A stretch of DNA of 64,000 nucleotides from Neobacillus mesonae (GTDB lineage: Bacteria; Bacillota; Bacilli; Bacillales; Cytobacillaceae), in contig NZ_KV440949.1 of NCBI RefSeq assembly GCF_001636315.1, positions 1,528,703-1,592,702 on the forward strand. Reading direction: 5' to 3'. The notes under the pieces were generated by a model that was given only the letters and a program-made list of their open reading frames with translations, made no database searches and had not been told where the DNA came from. Numbering within the stretch: position 1 is the stretch's first letter; the number at the start of each line of letters is the position of its first letter. A program made the translations under genes and the position numbers. This document shows, piece after piece, positions 10,862-63,651 of this stretch.

Positions 10862-10890
10862 AAAAAAACGAGGGAATTCCCTCGTTTTTT
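10862..10890 (-). terminator. Intrinsic terminator after the heptaheme cytochrome gene
   Basis: The sequence is a perfect palindrome with an ACGAGGG/CCCTCGT core centred at 10876.5, flanked by A and T tracts and overlapping the stop codon. Confidence 0.85.
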
Positions 10891-12883: not shown

Positions 12884-12934
12884 GATATTCATCCTTTTCT
12901 CTTTACTCTCAACCTAGAAAAAATGTTTTATTTT

Positions 12935-12943
12935 ATTATATCA
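12935..12943 (-). promoter_or_regulatory. Candidate extended -10 promoter for the heptaheme gene
   Basis: On the minus strand TGA-TATAAT (TATAAT at 12935-12940) matches an extended -10. The -35 is poor. It lies about 50 bases upstream of the start codon. Confidence 0.45.
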
Positions 12944-13011
12944 ACTGAATCATCATTAATTTTCTTCATTAGTTTAAGATTTTTGACAATTTTGCATCAA
13001 TCTGGAATAAT

Positions 13012-13045
13012 AAACAAGGCAGTAATAATTACTATTACTACCTTG
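13012..13045 (-). terminator. Hairpin between the hexaheme and heptaheme cytochrome genes
   Basis: AACAAGG-AGTAATA pairs with TATTACT-CCTTGTT, one mismatch in a 15-base stem, then a T-rich stretch on the minus strand. It could be a terminator or attenuator. A second weaker inverted repeat (GCTAAC...GTTAGC) is at 13071-13099. Confidence 0.5.
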
Positions 13046-13102
13046 TTAATTTACATTACAATTTTCATCGGCTAACTAATAGTGGGGCTATTGGTTAGCT
13101 TT

Positions 13103-14194: not shown

Positions 14195-14309
14195 GTCTAA
14201 AAACCTCCCTAAAAAAATCTTTCTCTCTGTTTTTCTCTGTACCTTTTACGTCTTGTCAAAACGAAATTTCCTTCCTCCCGGGCCTCACCCCCTTAACGTC
14301 ATACAAATG

Positions 14310-15275: not shown

Positions 15276-15291
15276 TCGTGGTCATCTCCTC

Positions 15292-15981: not shown

Positions 15982-16101
15982 AAGTATCCACCTCTTTTTT
16001 CATCAGTTACCTATTGGGAAACCGCATGCATGTCTTTTAAATGATTAAGCCCCAACTATGAGCTTTAACATCTCAGCCAATGCCAATAACTTCCTGATCG
16101 A

Positions 16102-17256: not shown

Positions 17257-17279
17257 AAAAGCGTCCCTCCAGAGTTTGA

Positions 17280-18668: not shown

Positions 18669-18686
18669 TATCCTCACCCTTCCCAT

Positions 18687-38237: not shown

Positions 38238-39038
38238 TTAAATTGTGGCAAGACCTCTTTGTTTTAACATAACTTGTTTTCGGAATGCTTTTTGTTCTTC
38301 TTTAGTCATTGACTTATATTTTTTCAAGAACTTTTCATATTCCGGGATAACTTCTTTTACCGTACCGTAATCTTTTATTTCGCCATACTCAAGCCAGATG
38401 GCTTTATCACAAAATTCCTTTATCTGTCCCATGGAATGGCTGACAAAGAAAATGGTTTTTCCCTGTTCTTTAAACTCAAACATCTTATTCTTAGATTTCT
38501 GCGCAAAAACTTGGTCACCTACTGACAATGCTTCGTCAATAATCAGAATGTCGGGATTAACGGTGACAGAGATGGCAAAACCAAGGCGCGACTTCATCCC
38601 GCTTGAATATTTTTTTACTGGTTGATCAATAAAATCTTCAATATCAGCAAAATCAATAATTTCCGATTCCATTTCTTCAATTTCCTTCTTTTTAAAGCCA
38701 AGCATTAAACATTTTAGTTCAATGTTTTCTCGTCCAGTTAATTGATTATTAAGTCCCGAGGAAATTGCAATGATCGAAGTTTGCCCTATCGTTTCTACTG
38801 TACCTTCAGAAGGAGGAATAACGCCCGCAATAATATTCGAAAGCGTTGATTTCCCCGAACCATTTACTCCTACAAATCCAATTACGTCCCCTTTATGAGC
38901 AGTAAATGAAATATTTTGCAAAGCAAAGAAATCTTCTCCATAGCCACCTGGCAATATTAAGTCCAATAACTTCTCAGTAGGCTTTTTATGCATTTTATAT
39001 CTCTTATAAACATTTTTTACAATTACGGATTCACTCAT
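38238..39038 (-). CDS. tagH: Teichoic acid export ABC transporter ATP-binding protein, short TagH
   Basis: A 266-residue ABC ATPase with Walker A GVNGSGKST, signature YSSGMKSRLGFA and Walker B DILIIDEALSVGD. With TagG it exports lipid-linked teichoic acid. Only the ATPase domain and a short tail are present; B. subtilis TagH has about 260 more residues with a membrane helix and extracellular part. A second TagH at 56.1-57.8 kb carries that extension. It is 60 bases downstream of tagG; GAGGTGAT precedes the ATG. Confidence 0.92.
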   Translation of the reverse strand: MSESVIVKNVYKRYKMHKKPTEKLLDLILPGGYGEDFFALQNISFTAHKGDVIGFVGVNGSGKSTLSNIIAGVIPPSEGTVETIGQTSIIAISSGLNNQLTGRENIELKCLMLGFKKKEIEEMESEIIDFADIEDFIDQPVKKYSSGMKSRLGFAISVTVNPDILIIDEALSVGDQVFAQKSKNKMFEFKEQGKTIFFVSHSMGQIKEFCDKAIWLEYGEIKDYGTVKEVIPEYEKFLKKYKSMTKEEQKAFRKQVMLKQRGLATI

Positions 39039-40048: not shown

Positions 40049-41248
40049 TTAACTCATTTTGAAAGGAATAATAGCGCTTTTATTCGTAAACATATAACAA
40101 ATTAAGTTTGCACTGGATTCACCCGTAGAGTACTTATTCCATTGTTCAGCATAATAATCCACTACATTTAAGTCAAAACTATTTTGTTTAATTAATTCAA
40201 TAATCTCATCTGTATGCTCAACTATTGGCCCAGGCAAATTTTGTTCGAATTCAGTCAAAACTCCACGTTTCTTTTTGTATTCCTTTAAATCATAAGTAAA
40301 AAATATCATTGGTCTTCGTAATAGAGAATATTCAAATGGAATCGAGGAATAATCAGTAATTAAAATGTCAGCCGCAATCAGTAGATCATTTATTTCGTAT
40401 TTATCAGAAGAAAAATCATACAAGAATCCATTAGCAATTTTAAAATTTAACAAATTCTTTTGTACTACTGGATGCAGCCGCAACATTAATATATATTCAT
40501 TTCCCAGTTCACGTTGCATTTTTTCAACATCAAGCCGAAGTGAAAAATTATTTAATTCATCCTCACGATAAGTGGGAGCATATAAAATTACTTTCTTCCC
40601 TCTCAATTCGGGATATTTAGATATCAATTTTTCTAAAACCGTTTGCTTTGCTTCTTCATTATAAAAAAAATCAGTTCTTGGGATGCCAGTCCTAAGTATA
40701 TTCCCATCTTTAAGATTGAACGACTTTATAAATACATCAGCCATTACATCTGAACCGACGATCACTTTATGAAAATTACGATATACTTGCAAAAAGCGCT
40801 TATTAGCACGTTTACTTCGATTTTTAATAGACTCATCTTCTAGGCCAAACTTCTTCAACGCGCCAGAGGCATGCCATAACTGAATACATTCAACATTAGC
40901 TTTAAACTGAACAGACGCTAAAAATCCGAAATAGTTATCGATTAAAACATGACGCGAAGTGGCTAAATGATAAACTGACTTTATCCAGCTAAGGATACAA
41001 AGTGTCTCAAACGGAATTGTTTTCATACCTTGGTAATGTTTAAATTTATTTATGCTATTTCCTTTACAAAGCAAGATTATTTCGGATGAAATATTATGCT
41101 TTTGCATTTCCTCCAAGACATACTGGCTGTTATCACCAAAACTGATAACAAAAGTTGTTTTGTCTTCTTTAAGTGGCAAGAGATTGAAAAAGAAAAAAAC
41201 ACACTTAAAGACAAACAAATACAAAGAAATGGCTAGTTCTCTAGCCAT
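40049..41248 (-). CDS. tagB: TagB-like CDP-glycerol glycerophosphotransferase (teichoic acid primase)
   Basis: A 399-residue GT-B enzyme of the TagB/TagF family with a hydrophobic N-terminal segment for membrane association. The motifs are CIQLWHASGALKKFGLED (TagB-type WHA-GALKKFG), GIPRTDFF, KVILYAPTYR, LMLRLHPVV and ILITDYSSIPFEYSLL. TagB adds the first glycerol phosphate to the ManNAc-GlcNAc linkage unit. The WHASGALKKFG form, rather than TWHGTPLK, favours primase over polymerase. Its start overlaps tagD by 8 bases, so translation is likely coupled. Confidence 0.85.
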   Translation of the reverse strand: MARELAISLYLFVFKCVFFFFNLLPLKEDKTTFVISFGDNSQYVLEEMQKHNISSEIILLCKGNSINKFKHYQGMKTIPFETLCILSWIKSVYHLATSRHVLIDNYFGFLASVQFKANVECIQLWHASGALKKFGLEDESIKNRSKRANKRFLQVYRNFHKVIVGSDVMADVFIKSFNLKDGNILRTGIPRTDFFYNEEAKQTVLEKLISKYPELRGKKVILYAPTYREDELNNFSLRLDVEKMQRELGNEYILMLRLHPVVQKNLLNFKIANGFLYDFSSDKYEINDLLIAADILITDYSSIPFEYSLLRRPMIFFTYDLKEYKKKRGVLTEFEQNLPGPIVEHTDEIIELIKQNSFDLNVVDYYAEQWNKYSTGESSANLICYMFTNKSAIIPFKMS

Positions 41249-41639
41249 TCTTTACCACGTTTAAGTCGTTTTTTATTTTTGAAGTGGAAATGCCGATAGT
41301 TCTTGGTAAGTATACAACTTCACAATATTCTTTAAGGAAATCGAATTTACCTTTCCAATCATCTCCCATGACAAAAATATCAACATCATGTTTAATGACA
41401 TCTTGGATTTTTTGGTCCCATGTATTTTCAGGAATCACTTCATCCACATATCGAATCGATTCCAAAATCATTTTTCGATTTTCAAAGCTGTGGTAAGCCT
41501 GCTTATTTTTCCCTTTGTTAAATTCATCAGTGGAAAGACCCACAATGAGATAATCACCTAAATCTTTTGCACGACGTAGTAAATTGATATGTCCAAAATG
41601 GAGTAAATCAAATGTTCCATAAGTTAGCACCTTTTTCAT
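41241..41639 (-). CDS. tagD: Glycerol-3-phosphate cytidylyltransferase
   Basis: A 132-residue enzyme that makes CDP-glycerol from CTP and glycerol 3-phosphate, the donor for every TagB/TagF-type domain in this window. Signatures are VLTYGTFDLLHFGHINLLRRAK (HxGH), VGLSTDEFNKGK, RKMILESIRYVDEVI and a final RTIGISTSKIK. AGGAGG precedes the ATG and a clear sigma-A promoter lies about 90 bases upstream (TTGAAA, 17 bases, TATAAT). It heads the tagD-tagB-tagG-tagH-tagA run. Confidence 0.97.
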   Translation of the reverse strand: MKKVLTYGTFDLLHFGHINLLRRAKDLGDYLIVGLSTDEFNKGKNKQAYHSFENRKMILESIRYVDEVIPENTWDQKIQDVIKHDVDIFVMGDDWKGKFDFLKEYCEVVYLPRTIGISTSKIKNDLNVVKNG

Positions 41640-41820: not shown

Positions 41821-44403
41821 CTATTGTAGTTCTTTCACAATATATAATGCACTTACCCAGCCGGTTTTACCATCTGCTAAGTTAACCTGATACCATTTTT
41901 TCGATGGATCCATGATTAATTTATTATTTTCGTCCAATGTCAATGAAATAAACTGATGTAATTTAAATTTACCGATGATGTTTACATTAGATGTAGTATC
42001 AGTCGTTGAACGAACATTTAAGGTAGTTGCATCAATAACTCTTCCAAGGTTAAGTACAGAAATATATTTGTCATATTGTGAAAAACTTATATTACTAAGT
42101 GTGGACTGTTTGTCATTAAACAGCACTTTTACTTTATAATCATTTGTCTTTTCAAGCAGAGTAAAAATAGTTTTTGTTTTTATATCGTTCGATAAGTCCT
42201 TTTTTGCCAGCACTTGAATTCCTTCAGGAAATTGATCGCCCCCGTCCGGAATTCCAGGAATGGAAAAATAATTTGAATCAATCTTGGAGTTTTCATACTC
42301 TTTTTTATTAAATGCCATGATTTTTTGCATGTGCTTGGCAATGCCATTTCCCCAATTTGGGTCACTTGCATACCAAAAGTTCATCCCAATACTCTTGCTT
42401 TCTACTCTTTTTCCATTCGCATCATTTGTCCGATAGCCAAGCATTGCCCCTTCAAAATGCTTGCCGTATGGATTTAAATAATCAGCTTTCATTTTTTGGG
42501 CAACATAATTAATGCATGCTTCAACTGATGAAAAACGGTAAGCCCCTACGAATGGGGTTGCATCATACGCACCATAACCAAACAGGTTATTTTTCCCTAA
42601 TGATATGTTGGATGTACCAAAGCCGGATTCATGGATGGCATGTGCTGCTAAGTACAAGGCGTTCACCCCATATCGATTTCCTGCATCGATAAAAGCTTGG
42701 CCTTTATTAAGTAATACACTTGTTGCACTAAGTTTCTTATAGTTTGCCGTATTTCTATAATTGGCAGCAATATAAGCATTAATTTGCTGAGCTGTTACAG
42801 TTGATTTAGTTCTTAAGTCAATAAACCTGTAATCAGTTAATTCATATTCCTTTAAATAGCTGGAGTAGACATAGCCAGTTAGTCCTTTATAAGTTACTTG
42901 ATACCATTCATCATTTAATCTTTCTAATGAAGTAACCGTAGTTCCCTTAGGAATCGTAATTAAAGGTGGAGTACCTTCTCCTGATTTACGCAAATTCAAA
43001 TCTGCAGTTACCAAATAGGTCTTCTCTTCAGTGGGAGCAGCTTGTGTATTCTCCGCTGGTTTTTCCATAGGTTTTTCTACAATCTCTTCAGATGGTTTTT
43101 CCACAGGTCCCTCTTCTATTTTAGGTGCGATTTGAAGATTAGACAGAGAAACATAACCTGTTTTCCCTTTATAGGTAACAGCAGCCCAATCTCCAATACT
43201 TTTCGTTGTAGAAATAATCGTACCTTTTGGAAGCTGTACTACCTTTGTAAATACAGTTCCATAGGATGAATAAACATATGTACTAACTTTAACCTGATAA
43301 TTTATTTTAGCAAAGGATTTAACGGAAGCTTTACTTACATCACCACTATACACATAATAAGATTTGCCATTATAAGATACCTTATACCAGATCTGCCCGA
43401 TACTATTAATAACTTTTTGGTTAGAATACATTCCATTTTTGCTTGGAATTGTAACCATTGCCTTTTTTGTTTTTGGTGCTGAATAAAGTTTTGTTGAATT
43501 CTTCGTAAAATAATAAGTGCCAAGTGTATTGGTGTACTGGTTGTATTCCCTTAAATAGTCACCGCTGACCCAGCCGGTTTTGCTCGTCTTCTTTCCATTA
43601 GAAGTATAGGAATAAGTAACCTTATACCAATTACCTGATTTACTGTTTGCAGTAACAACTTTCCCTTTTTTTATGGTTATAATGATTTTTTCTTTTGTAC
43701 TTGTTCCAGCCCGCAAATTTACATTTTCAGAGGTAACAAAATTTGTTTTGGTATATGGAGTTGTCTTTGTCACTAAAGTTTTAGTTTCGGTGGCTGACTG
43801 TTTTTTTAAATAGTCACCGCTGACCCAACCCGTTTTGCTAATTTTCTTACCTTTAGAAGTATAAGAATAAGTAACCTTATACCACTTCCCCGTTTTGTCT
43901 GTAGCAATCACAGGTGATCCTCTTTTAATGGTTAGAATAACTTTTTCCTTGGTGCTCGCTCCAGACCGTAAATTCACATTGGCTGTCGTAAGAAAGTTAG
44001 TTTTGGCTATCGAAAGCGTCTTTGTTACCGATGATTTTGTAATCCCGGAGAACTTCTGTTTTAAATATGTCCCGCTCACCCAGCCTGTTTTCGTAACATT
44101 TTTTCCTTTTGACTTGTATGTATAGGAAACTTTATACCAACTGCCTAGTTTTTGTGATGAAGTAACTGTTTTTCCTTTTGGAATTGTAATGATGGTCTTA
44201 GTCTTTGTATTTGAACCTGTCCGTAAATTTAAATTTGCGGTTGTTTGATAGGAGGTTTTACTAAACTTAACTAAACTGGCAGCTTCCGCATAATGTATGT
44301 TATTGGATAGAAGCGGTATCGTCGTACTAGTACTTAAACTTCCAAATAACAAACCAGTTGAAAGAACCACCACTACTTTCCCCATTTTTTTCAATGAATC
44401 CAC
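41821..44403 (-). CDS. Secreted SH3b-repeat N-acetylglucosaminidase (GH73-like autolysin)
   Basis: An 860-residue wall hydrolase with a signal peptide (about 1-42). SH3b domains lie at about 50-115, 135-200 and 218-285, three near-identical copies ending KTGWVSG-YL, then weaker ones at 295-358, 365-425 and 462-518. A Pro/Glu linker is at 428-462. The glucosaminidase domain spans about 555-700 with LYLAAHAIHESGFGTS (probable catalytic Glu592) and NNLFGYGAYD. A last SH3b lies at 790-857. It resembles LytD-type endo-beta-N-acetylglucosaminidases. It lies in the teichoic acid locus between tagD and the fused transferases with its own terminator. The three first SH3b repeats make a 250-255 base direct repeat in DNA (about 43550-44300). 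Confidence 0.88.
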   Translation of the reverse strand: MDSLKKMGKVVVVLSTGLLFGSLSTSTTIPLLSNNIHYAEAASLVKFSKTSYQTTANLNLRTGSNTKTKTIITIPKGKTVTSSQKLGSWYKVSYTYKSKGKNVTKTGWVSGTYLKQKFSGITKSSVTKTLSIAKTNFLTTANVNLRSGASTKEKVILTIKRGSPVIATDKTGKWYKVTYSYTSKGKKISKTGWVSGDYLKKQSATETKTLVTKTTPYTKTNFVTSENVNLRAGTSTKEKIIITIKKGKVVTANSKSGNWYKVTYSYTSNGKKTSKTGWVSGDYLREYNQYTNTLGTYYFTKNSTKLYSAPKTKKAMVTIPSKNGMYSNQKVINSIGQIWYKVSYNGKSYYVYSGDVSKASVKSFAKINYQVKVSTYVYSSYGTVFTKVVQLPKGTIISTTKSIGDWAAVTYKGKTGYVSLSNLQIAPKIEEGPVEKPSEEIVEKPMEKPAENTQAAPTEEKTYLVTADLNLRKSGEGTPPLITIPKGTTVTSLERLNDEWYQVTYKGLTGYVYSSYLKEYELTDYRFIDLRTKSTVTAQQINAYIAANYRNTANYKKLSATSVLLNKGQAFIDAGNRYGVNALYLAAHAIHESGFGTSNISLGKNNLFGYGAYDATPFVGAYRFSSVEACINYVAQKMKADYLNPYGKHFEGAMLGYRTNDANGKRVESKSIGMNFWYASDPNWGNGIAKHMQKIMAFNKKEYENSKIDSNYFSIPGIPDGGDQFPEGIQVLAKKDLSNDIKTKTIFTLLEKTNDYKVKVLFNDKQSTLSNISFSQYDKYISVLNLGRVIDATTLNVRSTTDTTSNVNIIGKFKLHQFISLTLDENNKLIMDPSKKWYQVNLADGKTGWVSALYIVKELQ

Positions 44404-44622: not shown

Positions 44623-47600
44623 TTATTCGAAAATTTTATAAAACGTACCCATTGCACGGTTATTGTACTCACTTGGTACAAAAACATCAGCTTTATAATC
44701 AGATTCTACTTTCACCATCTGTCTTAAACCGTTCTCCAATCCATCAATGCTGTTTTCGACTAGCATCCCATACCTGCCATCCTCAAGGACAGTTCTATTG
44801 GCCACGATATCAGTTGCAACAATCTTCATTCCATGAGTCATTGCCTCCAATAATACCATAGGCTGCCCTTCATAATGGGAAGATAATACAAAGCAATCGC
44901 ATTTTTTCATCAATCGGAAAGGATTTTCAACCTGTCCAGGAAGATATACGCTATCTTCAACTCCAAACTCTGTGATTAAATTTTCCAGCTCGGGTCTTAA
45001 CGGTCCTTCGCCTAAAATATAGAGTTTTGTGTTCTTATTGTCTTTATGCAGTTGAGCAAAAGCTTGAATTAGATTATCCTGTCCCTTTTCGGGAGAAAGC
45101 CTCCCCATGGTGATAAAATTATAGTGCTCCGTCGATGGTTCGGGAATAAACCTGCTGCCGCGTAGTATACCTAAAGTTTTTATATTTTGAAACGAGCGCT
45201 TATTTAACCAGCCGATAGGCTCATTTTCATAACTAAAATGATAATAAACTTCATCAATGGTACGGGCTTCCTTATTTATCGTTGCTAATTTGCCATTATA
45301 TTTATCTGTATCCACCAATTTTTCTGTGCCGGAAGTACCGGGTAATTCAGACCAAATTACATCTCCGTCTCCTATTTGAATTTCAGCAGTTTTTTTGACA
45401 GCTTTTTCACTATAAATAACCGGCTTTTTTATCATTGTAAAAGCATTGTGGTCCAGCCAGCCGACCCGTTTCCCGTCATTATAGAAAAAATAATACGTTC
45501 CTCTGGCAGTCCTATTACTTTTCGTTACAATCACTTTGGCATTGTCTAATTCACTGGCATCCATCACTTTTTTGCAGTCGGGATTAGGATAAGGTTTCGA
45601 CCACACCACATAATTTCCCGGCTTAGAAATGACTGCAAGCTCATATAAATTTTTCTCCTCCAGTGTACGATTGGGGACAAAGGAACGGGATCGGAAGTAA
45701 TTGGAAATTTGGTAAACACAAGCCTTTAACCTTCCTCTAACTGCGGTTTCATTCACAAGAGATAAGGCAGACGATTCAATCCAGCCTATGACCTTCCCAT
45801 TAATCGAAAACCTGCTATAGAGGCCATGATAGGTTCTAGCCTCTACATCAACAGTCACCATCATTCCTTTATAGTCTTTGGCGGGTGATATTTTTGTAGT
45901 TCCTTCTGTTTTATAAGGTCTACTCCAAATATCATGACCATAAACATGGCTAACAAAGGCTAATTTGTTTACCTCTGTTTGAGATAATATCCGGTCCGGC
46001 AATAACTCAAAACAGTCTTGATTGAGCCAGCCAACAATCCGATCGCCGAAAGAGAATTTATAAAAACCATTAGTCCCCGTTCGGGCTTCACGTAAGATAA
46101 CGACTTCTTTATTCAAATAGTGCTTGGCGGGTGCAAGTTTTTCAGCACCGCTTACACTTGGCTGGCGATTCCAAACATAATGATCTAGGGGCCGGCGAAT
46201 AATCGCGGCAGACTTAAAAATGCCATTGCTCATAATCGGCATTTCATGTTGAGAACGAGTTGAAGTATCTGTAGTCGAATCCTCTTCCTCCGCTAGGCGC
46301 AATATTTTTTCATAATTAATCGAATTCATTACATAATCAAACTTTGTTTCATTCGCATATTTAGCCAAATTCTGTTTGTTTACTTCCATCGTTCCCGGCG
46401 AAACACTGACAAGCTTGTCAAAACGGTCATAAACGGAAAACAGCCCTCTTAAATTTATCAAATGGGGCCTACGCCCATTAATGATCCTTTCACTATCTGA
46501 ATGCATATTACTATGAAGATAACAAATTTTTTTCTCTGCATCACTGGCAAGAAGGAATTTTGCCCAGTAAAGACTGTATCCACTGAAATCAATTACATAA
46601 TCAAACTTTGCTCTGCCAAATAGCCGTTGGTAATCTCGTATATAAGCTTTTTCAGGATAAAGCTTTTTCGTTAACCGGGTATATGCCCCGCGATTATGTA
46701 CAAACTTATCACGATATACTTCCTGAATGTTGAACATTGGGATTCCGCCGCGGAACAGAAACCTCGCTTTTTTATTGACCTTTTCCATGTTATCCAATAC
46801 TTCTTTAGATTGAGGCAGTTTCATAAAAATACTTACATCATATCGCTCAAAATCAATGTTATCCATTAGATTAATAAAAGAAGCAGTAATCCCATTATTC
46901 TTCAAACCTCCAGGATAAATAAGAATTTTCTTTTTATTCGTTTCTAAACCACGGATAACATTTAATGATTCTTTATTTTGCTTAAAAATATAGTCAACGA
47001 TCCGTTCTGTTACCTTCCCATCATCGTGATTCGTAAATCGTGACTTTGCTTGTTTATATACATCTTTATAATGGGAAAATACTTTATCTATATTTTGTAT
47101 TGCCGCTGCCACTTCCCTAATTGTAAACAACGTTGGGCCTGGTAATTCATCATCCACTAAATAGCGTCCTCTTTCCTCATTGTAATCATCATAATCCCAG
47201 ACATAGAATAGAATCGGTTTATCAGTCACTAAAAAGTCGAAAAAAATACTTGAATAGTCGGTAATTAATATATCTACCGTGCTAAGAAGCTCGTTTGTAT
47301 CGATAAAATCGGGAATTAAATAATCCTTTACCTCTTCATATTCTCTTGCTGTATTGTATAAATACGGATGCACCTTAATAAGTAAATTATAGTCTTTCCC
47401 TACTTGATTTTTTAAATAGGTCAGGTCAGCAATGATTTGAAACATATCATTCTTCGCCTTAGCCACGTTTGCTCCTTTCCATGTTGGAGCATAAAGAATC
47501 GTTTGCTTATTTGTATCGATTTCCAAACCTAACTCAGCCAAATGAGCTTTGACTTGCTCTGAGTCGCTATGATGGGTAAGGTCAATTCTTGGATATCCTT

Positions 47601-48210
47601 CTTGAAGGATTTCACCATTATAAATTCCATTTAGCTTATAGCTGTTTAGAAACATGTTTGTTGTATGCTCATTCGGGCTTAATAGGTAATCACTACTAAG
47701 AAAATTCCGGACGACATTTTGGGAATTAGACGGATTTCCAGGGATATCAAATCCCATGCTTTTAAGAGGGGTCCCATGCCATGTATTAATGTATACCTGA
47801 TCCTTTTTTGGGGTAAAAAACGGCTGAAAAGTAGAGTTATTAATTAAATATTTGCTTGTAGCTAATTTTTTCAGGTATTCCTTTGAGTTTCGTTTAACAA
47901 AGGAAACGTTCTTTAACTTTCGATACTTGTTAATAACGTAACTTAAATCCTTAAAGCCAGCCACCGACCAGATATGTTTGAAATCTTTATAATCAGGATG
48001 TTGTAATAAGTACTTAAAAATAGCATAAGGGCTATCAGTTATACTTTTCCCATCCCTGCTTTCATAGAAAATGGTTTTATCTTTTATCTTTAACTTATCA
48101 AAGTAACGTGCATACTGAAAATTTTTTCGATGGTTTGCGTTTCCGGCATACTGATAAACCGGGCCTAATACAAATCTCATTCGCCTTTTTAATACCTTTT
48201 TGTTTATCAA
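44623..48210 (-). CDS. Bifunctional CDP-glycerol glycerophosphotransferase / GT4 glycosyltransferase with four GW modules inside the GT4 domain
   Basis: A 1195-residue protein, probably cytoplasmic or membrane-associated: no signal peptide is seen. Residues about 40-410 are a TagF-type domain with INTWHGTPLK (His145), EGYPRIDL, ILYAPTWKG, IKVHPYLY and ILITDYSSIFFD. Residues about 425-640 are the N-lobe of a GT-B enzyme (KKILIYPGGLKNNGITAS, FDYVIDFSGYSLYWAKFL). Residues about 1025-1195 are its C-lobe (FITMGRLSPEKGQ, LYILGEGPLRPELE, SHYEGQPMVLLEAM). Between the lobes lie four GW modules, about 668-737, 750-820, 858-928 and 942-1010, each ending G-(V/I)GW. GW modules otherwise bind teichoic acids on wall proteins. 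Start is TTG with AAGGGAG upstream. The two paralogues at 58.5-63.7 kb lack the insert. Confidence 0.88.
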   Translation of the reverse strand: MINKKVLKRRMRFVLGPVYQYAGNANHRKNFQYARYFDKLKIKDKTIFYESRDGKSITDSPYAIFKYLLQHPDYKDFKHIWSVAGFKDLSYVINKYRKLKNVSFVKRNSKEYLKKLATSKYLINNSTFQPFFTPKKDQVYINTWHGTPLKSMGFDIPGNPSNSQNVVRNFLSSDYLLSPNEHTTNMFLNSYKLNGIYNGEILQEGYPRIDLTHHSDSEQVKAHLAELGLEIDTNKQTILYAPTWKGANVAKAKNDMFQIIADLTYLKNQVGKDYNLLIKVHPYLYNTAREYEEVKDYLIPDFIDTNELLSTVDILITDYSSIFFDFLVTDKPILFYVWDYDDYNEERGRYLVDDELPGPTLFTIREVAAAIQNIDKVFSHYKDVYKQAKSRFTNHDDGKVTERIVDYIFKQNKESLNVIRGLETNKKKILIYPGGLKNNGITASFINLMDNIDFERYDVSIFMKLPQSKEVLDNMEKVNKKARFLFRGGIPMFNIQEVYRDKFVHNRGAYTRLTKKLYPEKAYIRDYQRLFGRAKFDYVIDFSGYSLYWAKFLLASDAEKKICYLHSNMHSDSERIINGRRPHLINLRGLFSVYDRFDKLVSVSPGTMEVNKQNLAKYANETKFDYVMNSINYEKILRLAEEEDSTTDTSTRSQHEMPIMSNGIFKSAAIIRRPLDHYVWNRQPSVSGAEKLAPAKHYLNKEVVILREARTGTNGFYKFSFGDRIVGWLNQDCFELLPDRILSQTEVNKLAFVSHVYGHDIWSRPYKTEGTTKISPAKDYKGMMVTVDVEARTYHGLYSRFSINGKVIGWIESSALSLVNETAVRGRLKACVYQISNYFRSRSFVPNRTLEEKNLYELAVISKPGNYVVWSKPYPNPDCKKVMDASELDNAKVIVTKSNRTARGTYYFFYNDGKRVGWLDHNAFTMIKKPVIYSEKAVKKTAEIQIGDGDVIWSELPGTSGTEKLVDTDKYNGKLATINKEARTIDEVYYHFSYENEPIGWLNKRSFQNIKTLGILRGSRFIPEPSTEHYNFITMGRLSPEKGQDNLIQAFAQLHKDNKNTKLYILGEGPLRPELENLITEFGVEDSVYLPGQVENPFRLMKKCDCFVLSSHYEGQPMVLLEAMTHGMKIVATDIVANRTVLEDGRYGMLVENSIDGLENGLRQMVKVESDYKADVFVPSEYNNRAMGTFYKIFE

Positions 48211-48394: not shown

Positions 48395-49570
48395 TTATTT
48401 ATTTTTTAAAATAACTTCCTTAACCACTCTTTCAGTTGCATGACCATCTTCTAAATAACAAAATTGTTGATAAAACTCAGCCATTTTTCTGCTAAAGATT
48501 TGATTATGTTCGTATCCTTTTATCGCCTCAATCACTTCTTCAGTTGTTTTAACTAACGGACCTGGTGCCTTCTCTGCCAGGTTAAAGTAAAACCCTCTAA
48601 TATCCTCTTTATACTCATCCAAATCATAGGTAAAGAAGATCATCGGCCGTTTTAAATTCGCATAGTCAAAAAATACAGATGAATAATCGGTAATTAACAA
48701 ATCACTGATTAAATAAAGCTCTTGAATATCTTCATACTTTGAGAAATCATAGGCAAAACCTTTAAATGTATCGAGATTAAAGTTCTCTGCGACTAAATAA
48801 TGCATCCGCAAAATGATAATATATTCTCCACCAAGTTCTTTCTGCAGAATAGACAAATCCAGTTGCAGTTCCAATTTATATTTCCCAACTTGATGGTACT
48901 GATTATCTCTCCATGTTGGGGCGTAAAGAATAATCTTTTTTTCTTTAGGAAGATGATGAGTTTCCTTGAATTTTTTTGCAATCTCATCGCTTTCCGGTTT
49001 ATAAAAAATATCATTTCGGGGATAGCCTGATTCTATAACAGTTTTCTCAAATTTAAATGCACGTTTAAAAATCTCTGTCGAATAACGGTTGGGAGAAATT
49101 AAATAGTCCCAATTTCTTGATTCTTGATAAAATTCTTGTTTGTATTTTTCATTGGTTGTCCCCGGCATTAATACGTCTTTCATATCAAAGGCAAGTTTCT
49201 TCAGAGGAGTACCGTGCCAAGTTTGCAAGTATAAAGTATGACGTGGCTTTGGAATCCATATAGGCATTCGGCTATTAGTCACCCAATATCTGGATCTCGC
49301 CATGATAAAAAGCCATTTTATAGAAAAACGATGCGCATAAGGGACCCCTATCTCCTGAAACCCCTTTTCAAAACGGGGGTCAATACTCCAAATCAATTCA
49401 TATTCCGGATGATGTACCTTTAAGTATTCATAAATAGCTCTTGGATTATCACTATATTGCTTACCAAGAAAACTTTCAAATATTATCAAGTTCTTCCTCG
49501 CTGGTAAAAATGAAACAACTTGAAATAAATATTTATAAATGAGTATTAATAAATTTTTTATAAATGGCAA
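48395..49570 (-). CDS. TagF/TagB-family CDP-glycerol glycerophosphotransferase
   Basis: A 391-residue single-domain enzyme with a hydrophobic amphipathic N-terminus. It has LQTWHGTPLKKLAFDMKDV, ESGYPRNDIFY, ILYAPTWRDN, ILRMHYLVAEN and LLITDYSSVFFDYANLKRP. It is closely similar to the C-terminal half of the 713-residue protein at 52.3-54.5 kb, with the same TWHGTPLKKL-FDMKDV and ISPN-YS-EIFKRAFKF stretches, so the two are probably recent relatives. It transfers glycerol phosphate from CDP-glycerol to a growing chain or sugar; polymerase versus short-chain primer cannot be told. Start is TTG (49570) with AGGAGAG 9 bases upstream. A 319-base spacer separates it from the next gene. Confidence 0.87.
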   Translation of the reverse strand: MPFIKNLLILIYKYLFQVVSFLPARKNLIIFESFLGKQYSDNPRAIYEYLKVHHPEYELIWSIDPRFEKGFQEIGVPYAHRFSIKWLFIMARSRYWVTNSRMPIWIPKPRHTLYLQTWHGTPLKKLAFDMKDVLMPGTTNEKYKQEFYQESRNWDYLISPNRYSTEIFKRAFKFEKTVIESGYPRNDIFYKPESDEIAKKFKETHHLPKEKKIILYAPTWRDNQYHQVGKYKLELQLDLSILQKELGGEYIIILRMHYLVAENFNLDTFKGFAYDFSKYEDIQELYLISDLLITDYSSVFFDYANLKRPMIFFTYDLDEYKEDIRGFYFNLAEKAPGPLVKTTEEVIEAIKGYEHNQIFSRKMAEFYQQFCYLEDGHATERVVKEVILKNK

Positions 49571-56120: not shown

Positions 56121-57779
56121 TTAAACGTTCCCGTTATCAGAAGTTTGTTTTACTGATATTTTGTTGAAATTAAATCCATTTGAGAAAAAAATAAAGTCAT
56201 GTTTTTCCCCATGATATAAAACTGCTTTTTCCCCTTGAAGAAGACTTGGCTCTCCTAATTGGGATATCAACTGTTCTTGGTTAATTACTGTATTAATCCC
56301 TATAGTAATCTCATTAACAATTCCATTTTGATCATAAGCCATCTCTACTAACCCATTCCCAATACCCTCGGTTTCTTGCTTAGTCTTTCCAAGATATGAT
56401 AAACCTTCACTAAACTTGTCTTGCTGAGCAATATAACTTATGGAAGTAACTAATTTATCCTCATTTATCTGGGTTTGCAGCTTACTAACTAACTTTTCAC
56501 TAATCCATCCTGAACGACCGTCAGCTAATTTGAATTTTAGCCAATTAATATCCTCTATAGGATCCTTTACGGTTTCCTCAACATCAACTGTATCTCCAAA
56601 ATCCACCATCGCAATTTTTCTACTATTAGTTAAATCAGGTGTGTCCCTAACAAAACCTGTCGCCAATTGAACGTAACGTATATCTTTTTTAATCTCCTCA
56701 ACTGTCTCCTTTACTGGCTCATTTTGTTTGGATTCAGTTTTATTCTTTAATGCATCGCTTTCCTTTACCGCTGACGCCTTTTCTTGATTATCTGACTTCA
56801 AATAGGTCATCGGATTCCATTTTAAGAATATCAAAAGCGCGGCTGCTAGGAAGATTAATGTTGTAAAAGCGGTTATTGCTTTTTTTCCAATTCGTTTTGG
56901 CTTTTTCCTAGAATTATCGCTCCTAGCTTGGCTAAGAAAACTGACATCCTCATTTTTCTGCATTTCAATACTGCCTTCGACAATCTCCTGTTTTTTACTT
57001 CTCATTTCCGCTATACTTTGATTAAACGTTTTTCTTTCTTCCTTCGACATATTGTTAAAAGCTTTAATAAACTTTTCGTACTGTGGAATTACTTCTTTAA
57101 TTGGGCCGTAAGCCTTTACTTGCCCACCCTCAAGCCAAAGGGCCTTTTGACAAAATTGCTTTACTTGTCCAATAGAATGGCTAATAAAGAAGATTGTCTT
57201 GCCCTTTTCTTTAAAACTGTTCATCTTATCTAAGCATTTTTGAGCAAAAATTTTATCTCCTACAGAAAGGGCCTCATCAATTACCAAAATATCAGGGTTA
57301 ATAGTTACTGAAATAGCAAAGCCTAGTCTTGATTTCATTCCACTTGAATATTTTTTTACTGGCTGATCAATAAAATCGCCAATTTCCGCAAAATCAATAA
57401 TTTCTGGCATTAAATCAGTAATTTGCTTTTTAGAAAACCCCAGCATTAAGCATTTTAACTCAATATTTTCTTTACCTGTTAATTGATTATTAAGACCGGC
57501 TCCAATTGATATGAGTGCTGCTTCCCCTTTAGTCTTAATAGTTCCTGAAGTTGGTGGAATTACACCGGAGATTAAGTTAGAAATTGTAGATTTACCTGCT
57601 CCATTCACACCAATTATTCCAATAATATCCCCTTTTTTTGCTTCAAAACTAATATTTTGTAATGCATAAAAATCTTTACCATAACCATTTGGTAAAATTA
57701 AATCCAACAACTTATCTGATGTCTTTTTATACATCTTAAATTTTTTCGTGACGTTATTAAAAACAATTGCGGTATCCAT
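56121..57779 (-). CDS. Long TagH: teichoic acid ABC ATPase with membrane helix and extracellular SH3-like domain
   Basis: A 552-residue protein. Residues 1 to about 250 are an ABC ATPase nearly identical in layout to the TagH at 38-39 kb (LLDLILPNGYGKDFYALQNISFEA, Walker A GVNGAGKST, YSSGMKSRLGFA, ILVIDEALSVGD). A linker follows, then one transmembrane helix (about 297-316, AITAFTTLIFLAAALLIFLKW), an acidic/Lys stretch, and an SH3b-like domain (about 370-435, ending LADGRSGWISEKLV) plus a final 110 residues outside. This is the architecture of full-length B. subtilis TagH (527 residues). No second permease gene is beside it, so it may pair with TagG at 39.1-39.9 kb in competition with the short TagH. 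AAGGAGA precedes the ATG. Confidence 0.87.
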   Translation of the reverse strand: MDTAIVFNNVTKKFKMYKKTSDKLLDLILPNGYGKDFYALQNISFEAKKGDIIGIIGVNGAGKSTISNLISGVIPPTSGTIKTKGEAALISIGAGLNNQLTGKENIELKCLMLGFSKKQITDLMPEIIDFAEIGDFIDQPVKKYSSGMKSRLGFAISVTINPDILVIDEALSVGDKIFAQKCLDKMNSFKEKGKTIFFISHSIGQVKQFCQKALWLEGGQVKAYGPIKEVIPQYEKFIKAFNNMSKEERKTFNQSIAEMRSKKQEIVEGSIEMQKNEDVSFLSQARSDNSRKKPKRIGKKAITAFTTLIFLAAALLIFLKWNPMTYLKSDNQEKASAVKESDALKNKTESKQNEPVKETVEEIKKDIRYVQLATGFVRDTPDLTNSRKIAMVDFGDTVDVEETVKDPIEDINWLKFKLADGRSGWISEKLVSKLQTQINEDKLVTSISYIAQQDKFSEGLSYLGKTKQETEGIGNGLVEMAYDQNGIVNEITIGINTVINQEQLISQLGEPSLLQGEKAVLYHGEKHDFIFFSNGFNFNKISVKQTSDNGNV

Positions 57780-58482: not shown

Positions 58483-60975
58483 TTGCGGATATCTAATATC
58501 ATAAGAAAAACAGTCACAGCTATAAAATTTTTTATTAAGCCTTTTATAAAAATGCTAAAAGATATAAATTTCAAAAAGAGTATAAAGTATACCGGCTTCT
58601 ATAAAAGATTAGGAATAAACGACAATATTATTTTATATGAATCCTTCCACGGAGAAGGAATGATTGATAATCCTTATGCAATTTTTAAAAATTTGGTTGA
58701 TAACCCGGAATACGGCGATTATAAACATATTTGGGCTTTAAATTCAACTAATAATTTTCATGTACATCAATATAAAAGAAAGAAAAATGTAGAATTTGTT
58801 AAAGTGAACAGTAATAAATATTTGAAATATCTTGCTTCTGCAAAATATTTAATTAACAATACTTCATTTCCTTCGTACTTTCAAAAAAAAGAAGGCCAAA
58901 TTTATGTTAATACTTGGCTTGGGACCCCATTTAAAACTATTGGAAAAGATATTAAGGGGAATATTGGTCAGCACAAAAACATTCAGAGAAACTTCCTTCA
59001 TACCGATTATATATTAAATCCAAATAGATATACCGCAGAAACCTTAGTCGATTCCCATGATTTGGAAGGGTTATATGACGGTAACATAGTTGTTGAGGGA
59101 TATCCAAGAATCGATTTAACACTAAATTCAAATAAAATTGATGTCATGAATATGTTGTCAAACATATTAGATATTGATTTCAATAAAAAAATAATTTTAT
59201 ACGCTCCTACATGGAGGGGTGAAGTAAACTATGTTAAGGATTTTAGTGATGAAATTCTACATTTCATTCATGGACTAAATGAAAAAATTCCCTCAGACTA
59301 TCAACTTTTATTAAAAGTCCATCCATTAATGTATAAAACGATTAAGAAAAATGATTATCTTAAAAGGATTTGTGTACCGGAATGGGTAGATACTAATGAG
59401 TTATTTTCAATTATTGATATCTTAATAACTGATTATTCCAGTATCTTTTTTGATTATTTAATAACTAAAAAACCAATAATTTTTTATATGCCTGATATAC
59501 ATTCATATAAACTGAACCATGGTTTATACTTGAATCTAAATAAATTACCGGGTCCTATTTGTACAAATATAAATGATGTTTTAAATTCATTATATAACTT
59601 GCCGGGCTTAATAGAAAATTATAAAGAACTCTTCCAAGAAATGATATTGAAATATTGCCATTTTGATAATGGAAAAGCAACAAAGCGTAATATAGATATA
59701 ATTTTTAATTCAAGAACTACTAAAAATGTATACAAAGTTAGTAATAATAAAAAAAATATTTTATTTTATTGCGGTGGATTTTTAAATAATGGCATTACAA
59801 CATCTGCAATTAATCTTTTTAATAATTTAGATTACTCACGATATAATGTTGTAATTATTGAAAAGGAAAAATTAGATATTATCCCTAGTGAGAATTTTAA
59901 AAAGCTAAATAAAAATCCAAAAAAATTTTTTAGGGCTGGACGTATGAATTTTACTTTAAGCGATTATTATAAACATAATTTTATATTGAAAAAAGGATTA
60001 AAAAATGAAAAACTGACCAAATTAATCCCAAAATCATTATATAATAGGGAATTTTCAAGATTATTTGGCAATGTCAAATTTGACATAGTCGTTGATTTCA
60101 GTGGATATGTCCCATTTTGGAGTTTGCTTTTTGCATTTGGGGAATTTAAGAAAAAATGTATATATCAACATAATGATATGAAGGCTGAATACTATAAAAT
60201 TATTAATAATAAATTTAAACATAGATCTAAGATGAATTTGATATTCCCATTATATAAATATTTTGACAAAGTTATCTCTGTATCGGAGCAAACTAGAGAT
60301 GTAAATTTAAATAATTTAAATAAATATTTATCTAAAGATAAAACTGTATATGTTCATAATTGCTTAGATTATGAAAAAATTTTGACCCAAGCAAAATACG
60401 GAGAAGATTTAAGTATTGTTAAATCAATGAAAAAAAATATAAATTTTGTTAACATGGGCAGACTTTCTCCCGAAAAAGATCAAGAAAAACTCATTCATGC
60501 ATTTTCAAGAGTCGCTCGAACTCATAATAATGTCAAACTATATATTATTGGAGAAGGTTCTTTGGAAGCAAAGCTAAAAGAACTTACTTCAAAATTGGGA
60601 ATAGAAGAAAGTGTAATTTTTACAGGTCAACTATCAAATCCATTCTTTTTAATAAAAAATTGTGATTGTTTTATTCTTTCTTCTAATCATGAGGGCCAAC
60701 CAATGGTATTATTAGAGGCTTTGACACTAAATATTCCAATTATCGCTACGGATATTGCTGGTTCAAGAAGTATATTAAAGGGTGGCTTTGGACAATTAGT
60801 AGAGAACAGTGAAGAAGGATTAATCCATGGTATGGAGAAATTTTTGTCTGGAAAGATATTACCTAAGATATTTGATTACGAAAATTATAATAAAAATGCT
60901 TTAAAGATGTTCTATAAAGAAATTGGTAATACTGATTTACCCCCAAAGGTAATAACTGAACAAATTATTAATTAA
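58483..60975 (+). CDS. TagF-like / GT4 fusion protein with substituted catalytic His
   Basis: An 830-residue protein. Residues about 35-405 form a TagF-type domain (NIILYESFHGEGMIDNPYAIFKNLV, EGYPRIDL, IILYAPTWRGE, LLLKVHPLMY, ILITDYSSIFFD). The normally invariant TWHGTP motif reads TWLGTP: codon 58918-58920 is CTT, so the His proposed as catalytic in TagF is Leu146. Residues about 420-815 are a complete GT-B GT4 enzyme (NILFYCGGFLNNGITTSAIN, FVNMGRLSPEKDQ, LYIIGEGSLEAKL, SNHEGQPMVLLEAL). The TagF half may be inactive and serve as a binding platform, while the GT4 half looks sound. Start is TTG with AGGAGGTGA upstream. It is 15 bases from the next gene, a paralogue. Very AT-rich. Confidence 0.85.
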   Translation: MRISNIIRKTVTAIKFFIKPFIKMLKDINFKKSIKYTGFYKRLGINDNIILYESFHGEGMIDNPYAIFKNLVDNPEYGDYKHIWALNSTNNFHVHQYKRKKNVEFVKVNSNKYLKYLASAKYLINNTSFPSYFQKKEGQIYVNTWLGTPFKTIGKDIKGNIGQHKNIQRNFLHTDYILNPNRYTAETLVDSHDLEGLYDGNIVVEGYPRIDLTLNSNKIDVMNMLSNILDIDFNKKIILYAPTWRGEVNYVKDFSDEILHFIHGLNEKIPSDYQLLLKVHPLMYKTIKKNDYLKRICVPEWVDTNELFSIIDILITDYSSIFFDYLITKKPIIFYMPDIHSYKLNHGLYLNLNKLPGPICTNINDVLNSLYNLPGLIENYKELFQEMILKYCHFDNGKATKRNIDIIFNSRTTKNVYKVSNNKKNILFYCGGFLNNGITTSAINLFNNLDYSRYNVVIIEKEKLDIIPSENFKKLNKNPKKFFRAGRMNFTLSDYYKHNFILKKGLKNEKLTKLIPKSLYNREFSRLFGNVKFDIVVDFSGYVPFWSLLFAFGEFKKKCIYQHNDMKAEYYKIINNKFKHRSKMNLIFPLYKYFDKVISVSEQTRDVNLNNLNKYLSKDKTVYVHNCLDYEKILTQAKYGEDLSIVKSMKKNINFVNMGRLSPEKDQEKLIHAFSRVARTHNNVKLYIIGEGSLEAKLKELTSKLGIEESVIFTGQLSNPFFLIKNCDCFILSSNHEGQPMVLLEALTLNIPIIATDIAGSRSILKGGFGQLVENSEEGLIHGMEKFLSGKILPKIFDYENYNKNALKMFYKEIGNTDLPPKVITEQIIN

Positions 60976-60990
60976 AAAGGGGACACAAAA

Positions 60991-63651
60991 GTGAATAAAA
61001 AAATGAAAGCTCCACTTAAGAAGGCAAAGAATATAGTAGAAAAGTTAACAGGTTATCAAATTATCGTATCAGAACAAAGAAAGCCAAAAAAGGTTAAAAA
61101 GAAAAGCAATTTGAATACATTAATAGACACTGAACTAAGAGAAAAACAACAGGTTATTTTAGAACGTAATAGACAAATTTCTAGTAATACTGCAAAAAAA
61201 TATAAAACAAATGCAACTTTTAGACGTGAAGTCGATTATACAAATTACTACGAAACTCTGACAATAAAAGACAAGACAATTTTATATGAAAGTTTTCATG
61301 GGAAAACTATGGGGTGTAACCCTTACGCTATTTTTAAGCAGCTAATAAGGGATCCAAAATTTTCTGAATATCATCATGTATGGGCACTAAATGATTTAAA
61401 TAACTGTCCGGAAGAATATTTTGAACTTCCTAATGTTGAATTTGTAACAGTTAATAGTGATTTATATTTACGTTATTTAGCAAGTTGTAAGTATTTAATA
61501 AATAATACATCATTCCCACCTTATTTTATAAAAAAGGAAGGTCAAGTATATGTAAATACCTGGCATGGAACTCCGTTAAAAACGTTAGGGAAAGATATGA
61601 AAGGTTCCTTAGGACAACATAAAAATTTAATGAGGAACTTTTTACAGTCGGACTACCTTATTCATCCTAATAAATTTACTGCAGACAAGATAATTGATTC
61701 ACATGATTTACGTGGTATCTACAAAGGAAAAATAGCCGAAACAGGATACCCTAGAGTGGACCTAGTTTTTGAAGAAAATAAAGAATTGAAAAAGCAATTA
61801 GGTTGTGAAAAAAATAAAAAGATAATTCTTTATGCCCCAACGTGGCGAGGTGAAGTAGGAAATGTTTCTGGTGAAATAAATAAGATAATTGAAGATATGA
61901 CGATTTTAAATAAAAAAATTGGTAGTGAATATACAATCCTACTTAGGGTACATTCACTAATGCAGAAATATGTTAAAGATATAGGGCTAGATTTAAACAT
62001 TGTTCCAGATAGTATTGATACTAATGAGCTTTTAAGTATTGTTGACTTACTTATAACAGATTATTCTAGTATATTTTTTGACTTTATGGTTACGAAAAAG
62101 CCTATAATTTTTTATGCACATGATCAAAGAAAGTACAAAAATGAACGGGGATTCTATTTAGACCTAAAAGATATGCCAGGTCCAATATGTAGGGATATTA
62201 ATGAACTTATTGGGGAAGTCCTAACAGCTAATGAGTATCAAGACATTTATCAAGAAAAAACAGAAAAATGTATCAATGAGTTTTCCTATATGGAAGATGG
62301 AAATAGTTCAAAACGGGTAATAGATATAATTTTTAATAATGATGAAAGTTATACTTATACTGTGTCTGACAATAAGACTAATATTCTTATTTATTGTGGT
62401 GGATTCTTAAATAACGGAGTAACAACTTCCGCAATAAACCTAATGAATAATATTGATTATAATAAATATAATGTTATGGTTGCTGATAAAGCAAATTATG
62501 ATGAAGAAAGCTCCAAAAATTTCAATAAATTAAATGAAAATGTGAAAAAATATTATCGAATTGGAAGCATGAATGTATTATTAAATGAAGTAGATAAGCA
62601 AAACTATTTATATAATTATGGTGCCGAACAATTCTATAGAAAAGGTCCTAAAGATTATTTAGATGAAGAAATTATTGATATGTATAAAAGAGAATATAAA
62701 AGAATGTTTGGGAATTCAAAGTTTGATATTCTTATTGACTTTAGTGGTTATGTGAAATTTTGGACTATGTTATTTGCTGTAAATGACAATAAAAAGAAGC
62801 TAATTTTCCAACACAACGAGATGATGGAGGAATATGAAAAGGTAGTATCTGATCATTATAAGCATAAGGAAAACCTAAATGTTATTTTTCCTGTTTATAA
62901 TTATTTTGACTATGTTGTTTCAGTGGCAGAGCATACTAGAAATAAGAATAAAAAAGAACTTGAACATTTAGTTTTAAATAGCGATAAGAAAATGGTGTAT
63001 GTTCATAATTCCATTAATTATAATTATGTATTAGATTCACTTAAATTAAGAAATACTATGGCAATTGCTGATAAAGAGTTTTATATTACAAGTAATTCAA
63101 TTACTCAACAAAATGATATGATTAATATCCAAGGACAGCAAGTTCCAAATAAGTCAGTATATAATTTTGTAACAATGGGACGTATGTCTCCTGAAAAGGA
63201 TCAAAAGAAATTAATCCACGCATTCGCTAAATTTTATGAAAAAAATGCAAATATTGAATTGTATATAATTGGGACTGGCGAATTGAAAGATGAATTAATA
63301 GCGGAAATTGATTCATTGCAATTACAGGATAAAATACATTTAGTGGGTCAATTGGACAATCCTTTCCCACTTATACAAGATTGCGATTGTTTTGTTCTTC
63401 CATCAAATCATGAGGGTCAACCAATGGTATTATTAGAATGCTTGATTTTAAATAAGCCAATTATCGCTACAGATATACCGGGGAATAGAAGTGTTCTCGA
63501 AAATGGTTATGGTGAAATTGTAGAAAATAGTATAAACGGTTTAGTTTCTGGTATGGAAAAAGTGATGAATGAAAAGCCGACTTATAAGGTATTTGACTAC
63601 CGTAAATATAATAAAGAAGCGATGAATATGTTCTATAATAATATTAATTAA
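60991..63651 (+). CDS. Fused CDP-glycerol glycerophosphotransferase / GT4 glycosyltransferase
   Basis: An 886-residue paralogue of the preceding gene, with intact motifs. A basic N-terminus of about 70 residues leads to the TagF-type domain (about 85-450): TILYESFHGKTMGCNPYAIF, VNTWHGTPLKTLGKDM (His192), TGYPRVDLVF, IILYAPTWRGEVG, LLRVHSLM and LLITDYSSIFFD. The GT4 part (about 460-885) has NILIYCGGFLNNGVTTSAIN, FVTMGRMSPEKDQ, LYIIGTGELKDEL and SNHEGQPMVLLECL. The two lobes are joined by about 45 residues, where the protein at 44.6-48.2 kb has its GW insert. Start is GTG with AAGGGGA upstream; it shares an operon with the previous gene. Confidence 0.87.
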   Translation: MNKKMKAPLKKAKNIVEKLTGYQIIVSEQRKPKKVKKKSNLNTLIDTELREKQQVILERNRQISSNTAKKYKTNATFRREVDYTNYYETLTIKDKTILYESFHGKTMGCNPYAIFKQLIRDPKFSEYHHVWALNDLNNCPEEYFELPNVEFVTVNSDLYLRYLASCKYLINNTSFPPYFIKKEGQVYVNTWHGTPLKTLGKDMKGSLGQHKNLMRNFLQSDYLIHPNKFTADKIIDSHDLRGIYKGKIAETGYPRVDLVFEENKELKKQLGCEKNKKIILYAPTWRGEVGNVSGEINKIIEDMTILNKKIGSEYTILLRVHSLMQKYVKDIGLDLNIVPDSIDTNELLSIVDLLITDYSSIFFDFMVTKKPIIFYAHDQRKYKNERGFYLDLKDMPGPICRDINELIGEVLTANEYQDIYQEKTEKCINEFSYMEDGNSSKRVIDIIFNNDESYTYTVSDNKTNILIYCGGFLNNGVTTSAINLMNNIDYNKYNVMVADKANYDEESSKNFNKLNENVKKYYRIGSMNVLLNEVDKQNYLYNYGAEQFYRKGPKDYLDEEIIDMYKREYKRMFGNSKFDILIDFSGYVKFWTMLFAVNDNKKKLIFQHNEMMEEYEKVVSDHYKHKENLNVIFPVYNYFDYVVSVAEHTRNKNKKELEHLVLNSDKKMVYVHNSINYNYVLDSLKLRNTMAIADKEFYITSNSITQQNDMINIQGQQVPNKSVYNFVTMGRMSPEKDQKKLIHAFAKFYEKNANIELYIIGTGELKDELIAEIDSLQLQDKIHLVGQLDNPFPLIQDCDCFVLPSNHEGQPMVLLECLILNKPIIATDIPGNRSVLENGYGEIVENSINGLVSGMEKVMNEKPTYKVFDYRKYNKEAMNMFYNNIN

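Follow-up and report, generated by a model that had tools for sequence, protein, structure and literature searches.

GW modules between the lobes of a glycosyltransferase domain in a putative teichoic acid polymerase of Neobacillus mesonae and other Bacilli

TagF-like polymerases and GW modules

The closest described relatives of the protein analyzed here are Cps3D and Cps7D from Actinobacillus pleuropneumoniae, in which a TagF-like glycerophosphotransferase is followed by a retaining GT-B glycosyltransferase half. The two halves of Cps3D are reported to add glycerol phosphate and alpha-galactose in alternation, and the product of Cps3D and Cps7D is poly(glycosylglycerol phosphate). The majority of TagF-like/GT-B polymerases carry a TPR domain at the N or C terminus. 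Cps3D dimerizes through its TPR domain, and active TPR truncations of Cps3D/Cps7D appear to be more distributive.

A polymer-binding module is known from Bcs3, the capsule polymerase of Haemophilus influenzae type b, where an SH3b domain holds the polymer inside the cell and constructs with a disrupted SH3b domain are inactive (PMC10299916). Like the protein described below, Bcs3 contains a TagF-related transferase; however, it has a different second transferase plus a phosphatase, and its one SH3b domain is located near the C terminus, does not form a tandem GW array, and is not inserted between lobes. TarS and TarM resemble the protein described here in being cytoplasmic teichoic acid enzymes with extra beta modules. 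The C-terminal domain of TarS, a carbohydrate-binding module (CBM) region, confers a processivity 18-fold higher than that seen without it, and both the C1/C2 domains of TarS and residues 69-201 of TarM(Se) are beta domains that trimerize. The C-lobe of TarM is related to that of the N. mesonae protein, as judged from a sequence search of the PDB, but TarS and TarM decorate the backbone instead of building it, and their extra domains are reported as trimerization domains, not GW modules.

GW modules of the same Pfam and NCBIfam families as those described here form tandem arrays in InlB, Ami, Auto (Lmo1076), and the staphylococcal Atl, all of which are secreted and anchor to the wall from the outside, whereas the N. 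mesonae array interrupts a catalytic domain of a cytoplasmic enzyme. In Listeria, proteins with GW domains were still retained when lipoteichoic acid (LTA) was absent, and a GW fusion bound the peptidoglycan of a strain negative for wall teichoic acid (WTA) (PMC4944223). Other papers tie retention of InlB to galactosylated WTA, and host ligands are also reported for the GW modules of InlB. Because of the Listeria results, the presence of a GW module cannot simply be equated with teichoic acid binding, and a polymer ligand is not assured.

A search of the literature outside subscription-only papers returned, among the papers listed, no description of GW modules in an enzyme of teichoic acid synthesis and no experiment on any member of the fusion family described below; the terms SH3, GW domain, TagF, GT4, and glycerophosphotransferase are all absent from a 2026 paper on a teichoic-like substance in S. 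pyogenes. The suggestion of the first-pass annotation that an intracellular role of GW modules had not been described agrees with this search for GW modules as such, but a polymer-binding SH3b domain in a cytoplasmic polymerase is already known from Bcs3. TagF-like polymerases that carry a processivity module are known; the new element appears to be an array of GW modules at the hinge of the lobes, present in naturally varying number.

Domain architecture of the N. mesonae protein

The window, the entire 64,000-nucleotide stretch of N. mesonae DNA that was analyzed, contains an open reading frame for a 1195-aa protein at positions 44623..48210 on the minus strand. It begins with a TTG codon, a plausible start given that relatives start with MNKKVLKRR or MINKKVLKRR. 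A Pfam scan of this protein identified Glyphos_transf (PF04464) at residues 39-410 (E value, 1.2e-91) and Glycos_transf_1 (PF00534) at residues 1026-1169 (2e-33). The TagF-like domain (46981..48096, minus strand), also recognized by alignment and by its PDB sequence match, carries the motifs WHGTP (H145), KVHP (H281), and DYSS, which are the three examined here of the five active-site motifs named in the Cps3D/Cps7D paper. The GT4 N-terminal, acceptor-side lobe comprises residues 425-637 (46300..46938, minus strand; local profile and Cps3D alignment), and the C-terminal, donor-side lobe, identified by Pfam and alignment, comprises residues 1032-1195 (44626..45117, minus strand) and carries the E-x7-E motif (E1114, E1122). 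The WHGTP, KVHP, DYSS, and E-x7-E motifs showed no variation among the 29 aligned proteins; a pattern for the glycine-rich GT4 N-lobe, which matched 47 of 69 proteins, was set aside as badly drawn. By its sequence, this protein unites a TagF-like glycerophosphotransferase with a GT4 transferase, which is the architecture of the solved polymerase Cps3D.

The top match in a PDB sequence search was Cps3D (8qoy; 1.3e-139), which aligned with both halves in the same order. Residues 32-643 aligned with Cps3D residues 374-965 and residues 1031-1193 with 979-1138, so that the insert (residues 638-1031; 45118..46299, minus strand), delimited by this alignment and by comparison with paralogues, stands in for the 13-residue interdomain linker of Cps3D and replaces it with 394 residues. 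The N-terminal TPR domain that has been linked to processivity in Cps3D is missing: the Pfam scan returned no TPR family match, and 38 residues precede the TagF-like match. Since the protein lacks this domain, the insert could be a substitute for it. A full-length AlphaFold2 model based on 29 sequences (pLDDT 79.3, pTM 0.67; pLDDT range of the five models, 64.7 to 79.3) gave a Cps3D-like fold over both halves. Its first Foldseek match was 8qoy (1.5e-56; TM-score 0.65 by target length), TagF came next, and the GW proteins 5jqc and 1m9s were at ranks 12 and 18. Residues 637-659 are modeled with low confidence (pLDDT under 50). The Cps3D alignment and the predicted fold place the insertion in the linker that joins the two GT-B domains, as the first-pass annotation had proposed.

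The insert and its GW modules

The four units that the first-pass annotation had assigned to the GW family at positions 45153..46233 (residues 660-1019) were recognized as such by both family models: Pfam GW (PF13457) matched four stretches with a score of 209.8 bits (6.7e-63; cut-off, 21) and NCBIfam NF033202 matched four with 219.5 bits (cut-off, 50). When the genome was searched in all six frames, the single modules scored 43.8-67.1 bits each, all above the Pfam cut-off of 21. A local profile derived from these same modules places module 1 at residues 661-736 (46003..46230), module 2 at 741-817 (45760..45990), module 3 at 849-925 (45436..45666), and module 4 at 932-1009 (45184..45417), all on the minus strand. 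The modules are 76-78 residues long, occur in tandem, and each contain a Gly-Trp dipeptide, in line with the GW family, whose members are about 80 residues long and usually tandem. They are arranged as two pairs separated by a linker (45667..45759, minus strand) with a predicted helix at residues 824-847, which appeared again when the insert was modeled alone (pLDDT 83.2). The top PDB matches of the latter model were the GW autolysin 5jqc, InlB (1m9s), the YrvJ model 9a7d, and the Atl repeats (4epc), with E values from 2e-19 to 2e-5, so that repeats of InlB, Lmo1076, and Atl are the nearest solved folds. The corresponding TM-scores over the whole array were low (0.19-0.44 by target length); the modeled likeness to known GW folds appears to lie in the individual modules, which are predicted to have the SH3-like beta fold, and not in the geometry of the array.

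Two paralogues encoded on the plus strand of the window lack GW modules, as judged from Pfam, the local profile, and the spacing of the flanks. Between the (N)YEKIL and FITMGRLSPEK flanks, the GW protein has 394 residues, versus 20 in the product of 58483..60975 and 44 in that of 60991..63651. The short spacers noted by the first-pass annotation are thus correct, but its NYEKIL flank is not itself shared and reads DYEKIL and NYNYVL in the paralogues. In the TagF-like half of the paralogue at 58483..60975, TWLGTP stands in place of the WHGTP motif, with Leu instead of the active-site His. Three other members of the same branch (L032:4529-7123, L035:3043-5490, and L036:3185-5674) show other changes in conserved motifs, and the glycerophosphotransferase half may be dead in this lineage. 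In the window as well as in the L032, L035, and L036 loci, the gene of this type is located near a paralogue of the 60991..63651 type.

Distribution among Bacilli

A search for the same architecture in other Bacilli, which the first-pass annotation had proposed, yielded, with the window protein counted, 53 distinct fusion proteins with 2 to 4 GW modules, all with the same insertion site, from Neobacillus, Peribacillus, Mesobacillus, Virgibacillus, strains called Bacillus, and Enterococcus plasmids, among other sources. At the family level, such a fusion was found in 16 of 193 genomes; of the 193, 19 (that of the window included) were examined as loci and the others were judged from listed open frames; a 785-aa C-terminal query matched all 193, because any GT4 transferase matches it. 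The order, class, and phylum samples, searched using a profile of the GW insert at a cut-off of 1e-10 that may miss distant members, contained fusions in 15 of 348 (one of them truncated at a contig end), 6 of 398, and 2 of 398 genomes, respectively; the four samples overlap, and the genome of the window is in every one. Among 21 loci of Neobacillus, Peribacillus, Mesobacillus, Virgibacillus, and Bacillus, 20 have an intact fusion gene, and in L055 the gene is split into three frames.

Plasmid-borne fusions were found in Peribacillus, Enterococcus gallinarum, and E. lactis and carry the annotation "CDP-glycerol glycerophosphotransferase family protein." Pfam recognized 1 to 3 GW stretches in each of six fusion proteins that are encoded in Enterococcus or in more distantly related genomes. 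On the 31-kb Peribacillus plasmid pD, galU, a four-module polymerase gene, and galE are adjacent (L110:6615-12673), a compact cassette that could be movable as a unit.

Evolution and selection of the array

Of the 65 distinct bifunctional proteins (including the three from the window), 37 have four modules, 6 have three, 10 have two, and 12 have none, as counted with the local profile at 5 bits or more, a permissive threshold that affects the counts for the Enterococcus rows and for two rows from the order-level sample. In a quick IQ-TREE phylogeny of the catalytic parts, which omits four later-found fusions from one family (L113-L116) and has SH-aLRT support under 80 for 18 of 62 inner branches, a fully supported branch separates the 53 module-bearing and two module-free proteins from the other 10 of the 12 module-free ones. 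One of the two, encoded on a plasmid of Staphylococcus nepalensis, lies on a long branch at the base of the module side, with support of 81 for the branch separating it; the Enterococcus rows also have long branches. The other, L021:4761-7259, is placed deep within the module-bearing clade and has probably lost its array. It keeps both catalytic halves, indicating that the array is dispensable for the fold.

Array length requires 12 changes on this tree, versus a mean of 25.8 after shuffling. When shorter arrays were compared with the module positions (four-module rows are scored against their own profiles, so that only the two- and three-module rows count), position 1 was matched in 9 of 11 rows with two modules, as was position 2, and all 6 rows with three modules matched positions 1, 2, and 3. 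The modules absent from shorter arrays are therefore those beside the C-lobe, and these arrays look like products of loss from the C-terminal side. Genes with different numbers of modules can occur side by side: within the genus, four-module and two-module genes are directly adjacent in five genomes and separated by a TarF-like gene in a sixth, and a single genome carries three tandem paralogues with 0, 4, and 3 GW modules (L021:4761-14672).

In seven pairs of relatives, with substitutions counted by domain, dN/dS was 0.08-0.25 for the modules versus 0.05-0.19 for the catalytic parts, and the modules had the highest ratio of the four regions in three of the pairs; two regions have nearly saturated dS values in the pair that includes the window protein. 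By these estimates, the GW modules are under purifying selection.

Charge is unevenly distributed along the array. In 33 four-module proteins with modules of 30 bits or more (many are close relatives, so the counts are not independent), a net positive charge was found for module 2 in 30, for module 3 in 29, and for the linker between them in 29, versus 10 for module 1, which is near neutral, and 6 for module 4, which is mostly acidic. The basic character of modules 2 and 3 and of the intervening helix fits the array as a polyanion binder. This is weak evidence, since of six distinct GW proteins outside the fusion family that were compared, three are not basic; in 8 of 53 proteins, the insert as a whole lacks a net basic charge. 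A simple rule equating GW modules with basic polyanion binders was rejected, as it is true of modules 2 and 3 only and fails for the same three proteins.

Gene neighborhood and likely product

In agreement with the first-pass annotation, the polymerase gene is found among genes of teichoic acid synthesis. The window encodes TagD, TagH, TarA-like, TarB-like, TarF-like, and TagO-like enzymes and a UDP-GlcNAc 2-epimerase; the TarF-like glycerophosphotransferase gene (48395..49570, minus strand) lies 185 bp 5' of the polymerase gene, and tagD, for glycerol-3-phosphate cytidylyltransferase, the source of CDP-glycerol, is located at 41241..41639 (minus strand). Across 47 fusion loci, some of which hold less than 5 kb of flank, raw counts set against no random baseline placed GalU at most 5 kb from the fusion in 24, with no more than 200 bp between them in 15 of these 24, and GalE at most 5 kb away in 15. 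In the genome of the window, GalU, identified by its sequence, is encoded about 19 kb from the polymerase. Taken with the Cps3D precedent, TagD and the proximity of GalU and GalE make poly(alpha-glycosylglycerol phosphate) the likely product, with CDP-glycerol and UDP-glucose or UDP-galactose as the putative donors. A TarF-like enzyme as a universal partner was rejected, as its gene is within 5 kb of the fusion in only 20 of the 47 loci (within 2.5 kb for 19 of 57 proteins).

Cell location and exported GW proteins

No signal peptide or membrane segment was detected in the 1195-aa protein by a 19-residue Kyte-Doolittle scan, whose maximum was 1.19 over the whole protein and -0.04 among windows that begin within residues 1-60. 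The first-pass annotation had likewise seen no signal peptide; export was rejected on hydrophobicity together with the teichoic acid gene neighborhood. Occurrence on exported proteins, which is the usual setting of GW modules and not part of the family definition, does not extend to this one.

Exported GW proteins are encoded in 9 of the 16 family genomes with a fusion versus 21 of 177 without one (Fisher's test, 9e-5) and in 8 of 12 versus 4 of 49 genomes of the genus (6e-5), in both cases with kinship ignored. The association is as if the exported proteins and the polymerase array bound one shared polymer, an idea that it fits. The genome of the window itself encodes a 678-aa GW protein with a signal-like N terminus (C1:1682534-1683619; L038) about 106 kb from the polymerase.

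Possible functions of the array

The reading favored here, to which we give somewhat better than even credence, is that the GW array acts as a clamp for the nascent chain and confers processivity on a teichoic acid polymerase; chain binding, processivity, and the alternating product are all inferred. A cytoplasmic polymerase would extend a lipid-linked primer, its TagF-like half adding glycerol phosphate and its retaining GT4 half an alpha-linked hexose in alternation, to give a wall polymer of the poly(glycosylglycerol phosphate) type. From their site at the hinge of the GT4 half, where the acceptor and donor lobes meet, the four GW modules would bind the newly made chain and, by keeping the enzyme on its product, make elongation processive. 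The precedents for such a chain holder are the SH3b domain of Bcs3, the TPR domains of Cps3D/Cps7D, and the C-terminal domain of TarS, GW modules being SH3b-like. In an extended version, the number of modules would set processivity and hence chain length, and the exported GW proteins would read the same polymer outside, one module family thus serving writer and readers; this is a speculative proposal that we hold to be unlikely in full. Natural variation in module number (0, 2, 3, or 4) makes the length-measuring idea testable but does not prove it.

The trimerizing beta domains of TarM(Se) and TarS and the TPR-mediated dimer of Cps3D are precedents for an array that would serve oligomerization or spacing, holding a multimer or a fixed lobe geometry without contacting the polymer. 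An array length that varies from 0 to 2, 3, and 4 among close paralogues is hard to reconcile with a fixed interface, and the TarS trimerization domain is reported also to raise processivity, so that this reading overlaps with that of a clamp; by itself it seems rather improbable. The basic modules 2 and 3 and the basic helix would also suit docking of the polymerase to a partner or the membrane (the TagH exporter, a TarF-like enzyme, or anionic lipids), and a TarF-like gene is indeed close to the fusion in the 20 loci mentioned above. However, none was seen within 5 kb in the other 27 (some with shorter flanks), and GW modules are known mainly as binders of glycans and the wall, although host ligands are described for InlB as well, and we regard docking as decidedly unlikely.

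A neutral fusion with no function might be suspected from the apparent loss of modules in some lineages, which is total in one, but it is very hard to reconcile with the low dN/dS values, with a single insertion point across several families of Bacilli, and with the retention of four modules in 37 of the 53 fusion proteins. Export by an unrecognized route, with the modules anchoring the protein to the wall, deserves scarcely any credence. It would agree with other GW proteins, 13 of 13 of which, from 12 genomes out of the 30 having one (the longest open frame per locus was taken), have a hydrophobic N-terminal segment with a 15-residue maximum of 1.6-3.1. Such a segment is lacking here, the gene lies among those for teichoic acid synthesis, and both catalytic halves depend on nucleotide-activated donors, which are cytoplasmic.

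How teichoic acid polymerases stay on their product and set chain length is, to our knowledge, poorly known. Enzymes that share their catalytic halves but differ in the number of putative chain-binding modules (0, 2, 3, or 4) form a natural series with which this question can be approached in vitro. If the nascent-chain clamp is correct, GW modules, so far seen as wall anchors of exported proteins, enter the synthesis machinery, and the array hints at the polymer that may be recognized by exported GW proteins in these bacteria.

Other genes in the window

Several further genes of the window encode transport or wall-related proteins. A short TagH is encoded at 38238-39038. A second TagH-like ABC ATPase (56121-57779, minus strand; 552 aa) has a hydrophobic stretch in its C-terminal part, as well as a weak SH3_3 match there (26.2 bits; cut-off, 27). 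Directly 3' of the polymerase gene lies a gene for a glucosaminidase (41821-44403, minus strand) with six SH3_3 repeats and a signal-like N terminus. Translations of the region at 10889-18686 (minus strand) contain many CxxCH motifs in a cluster of proteins, which we take to be multiheme cytochrome c-like proteins together with an NHL-type and a TPR-like protein, an unusual set for a bacillus.
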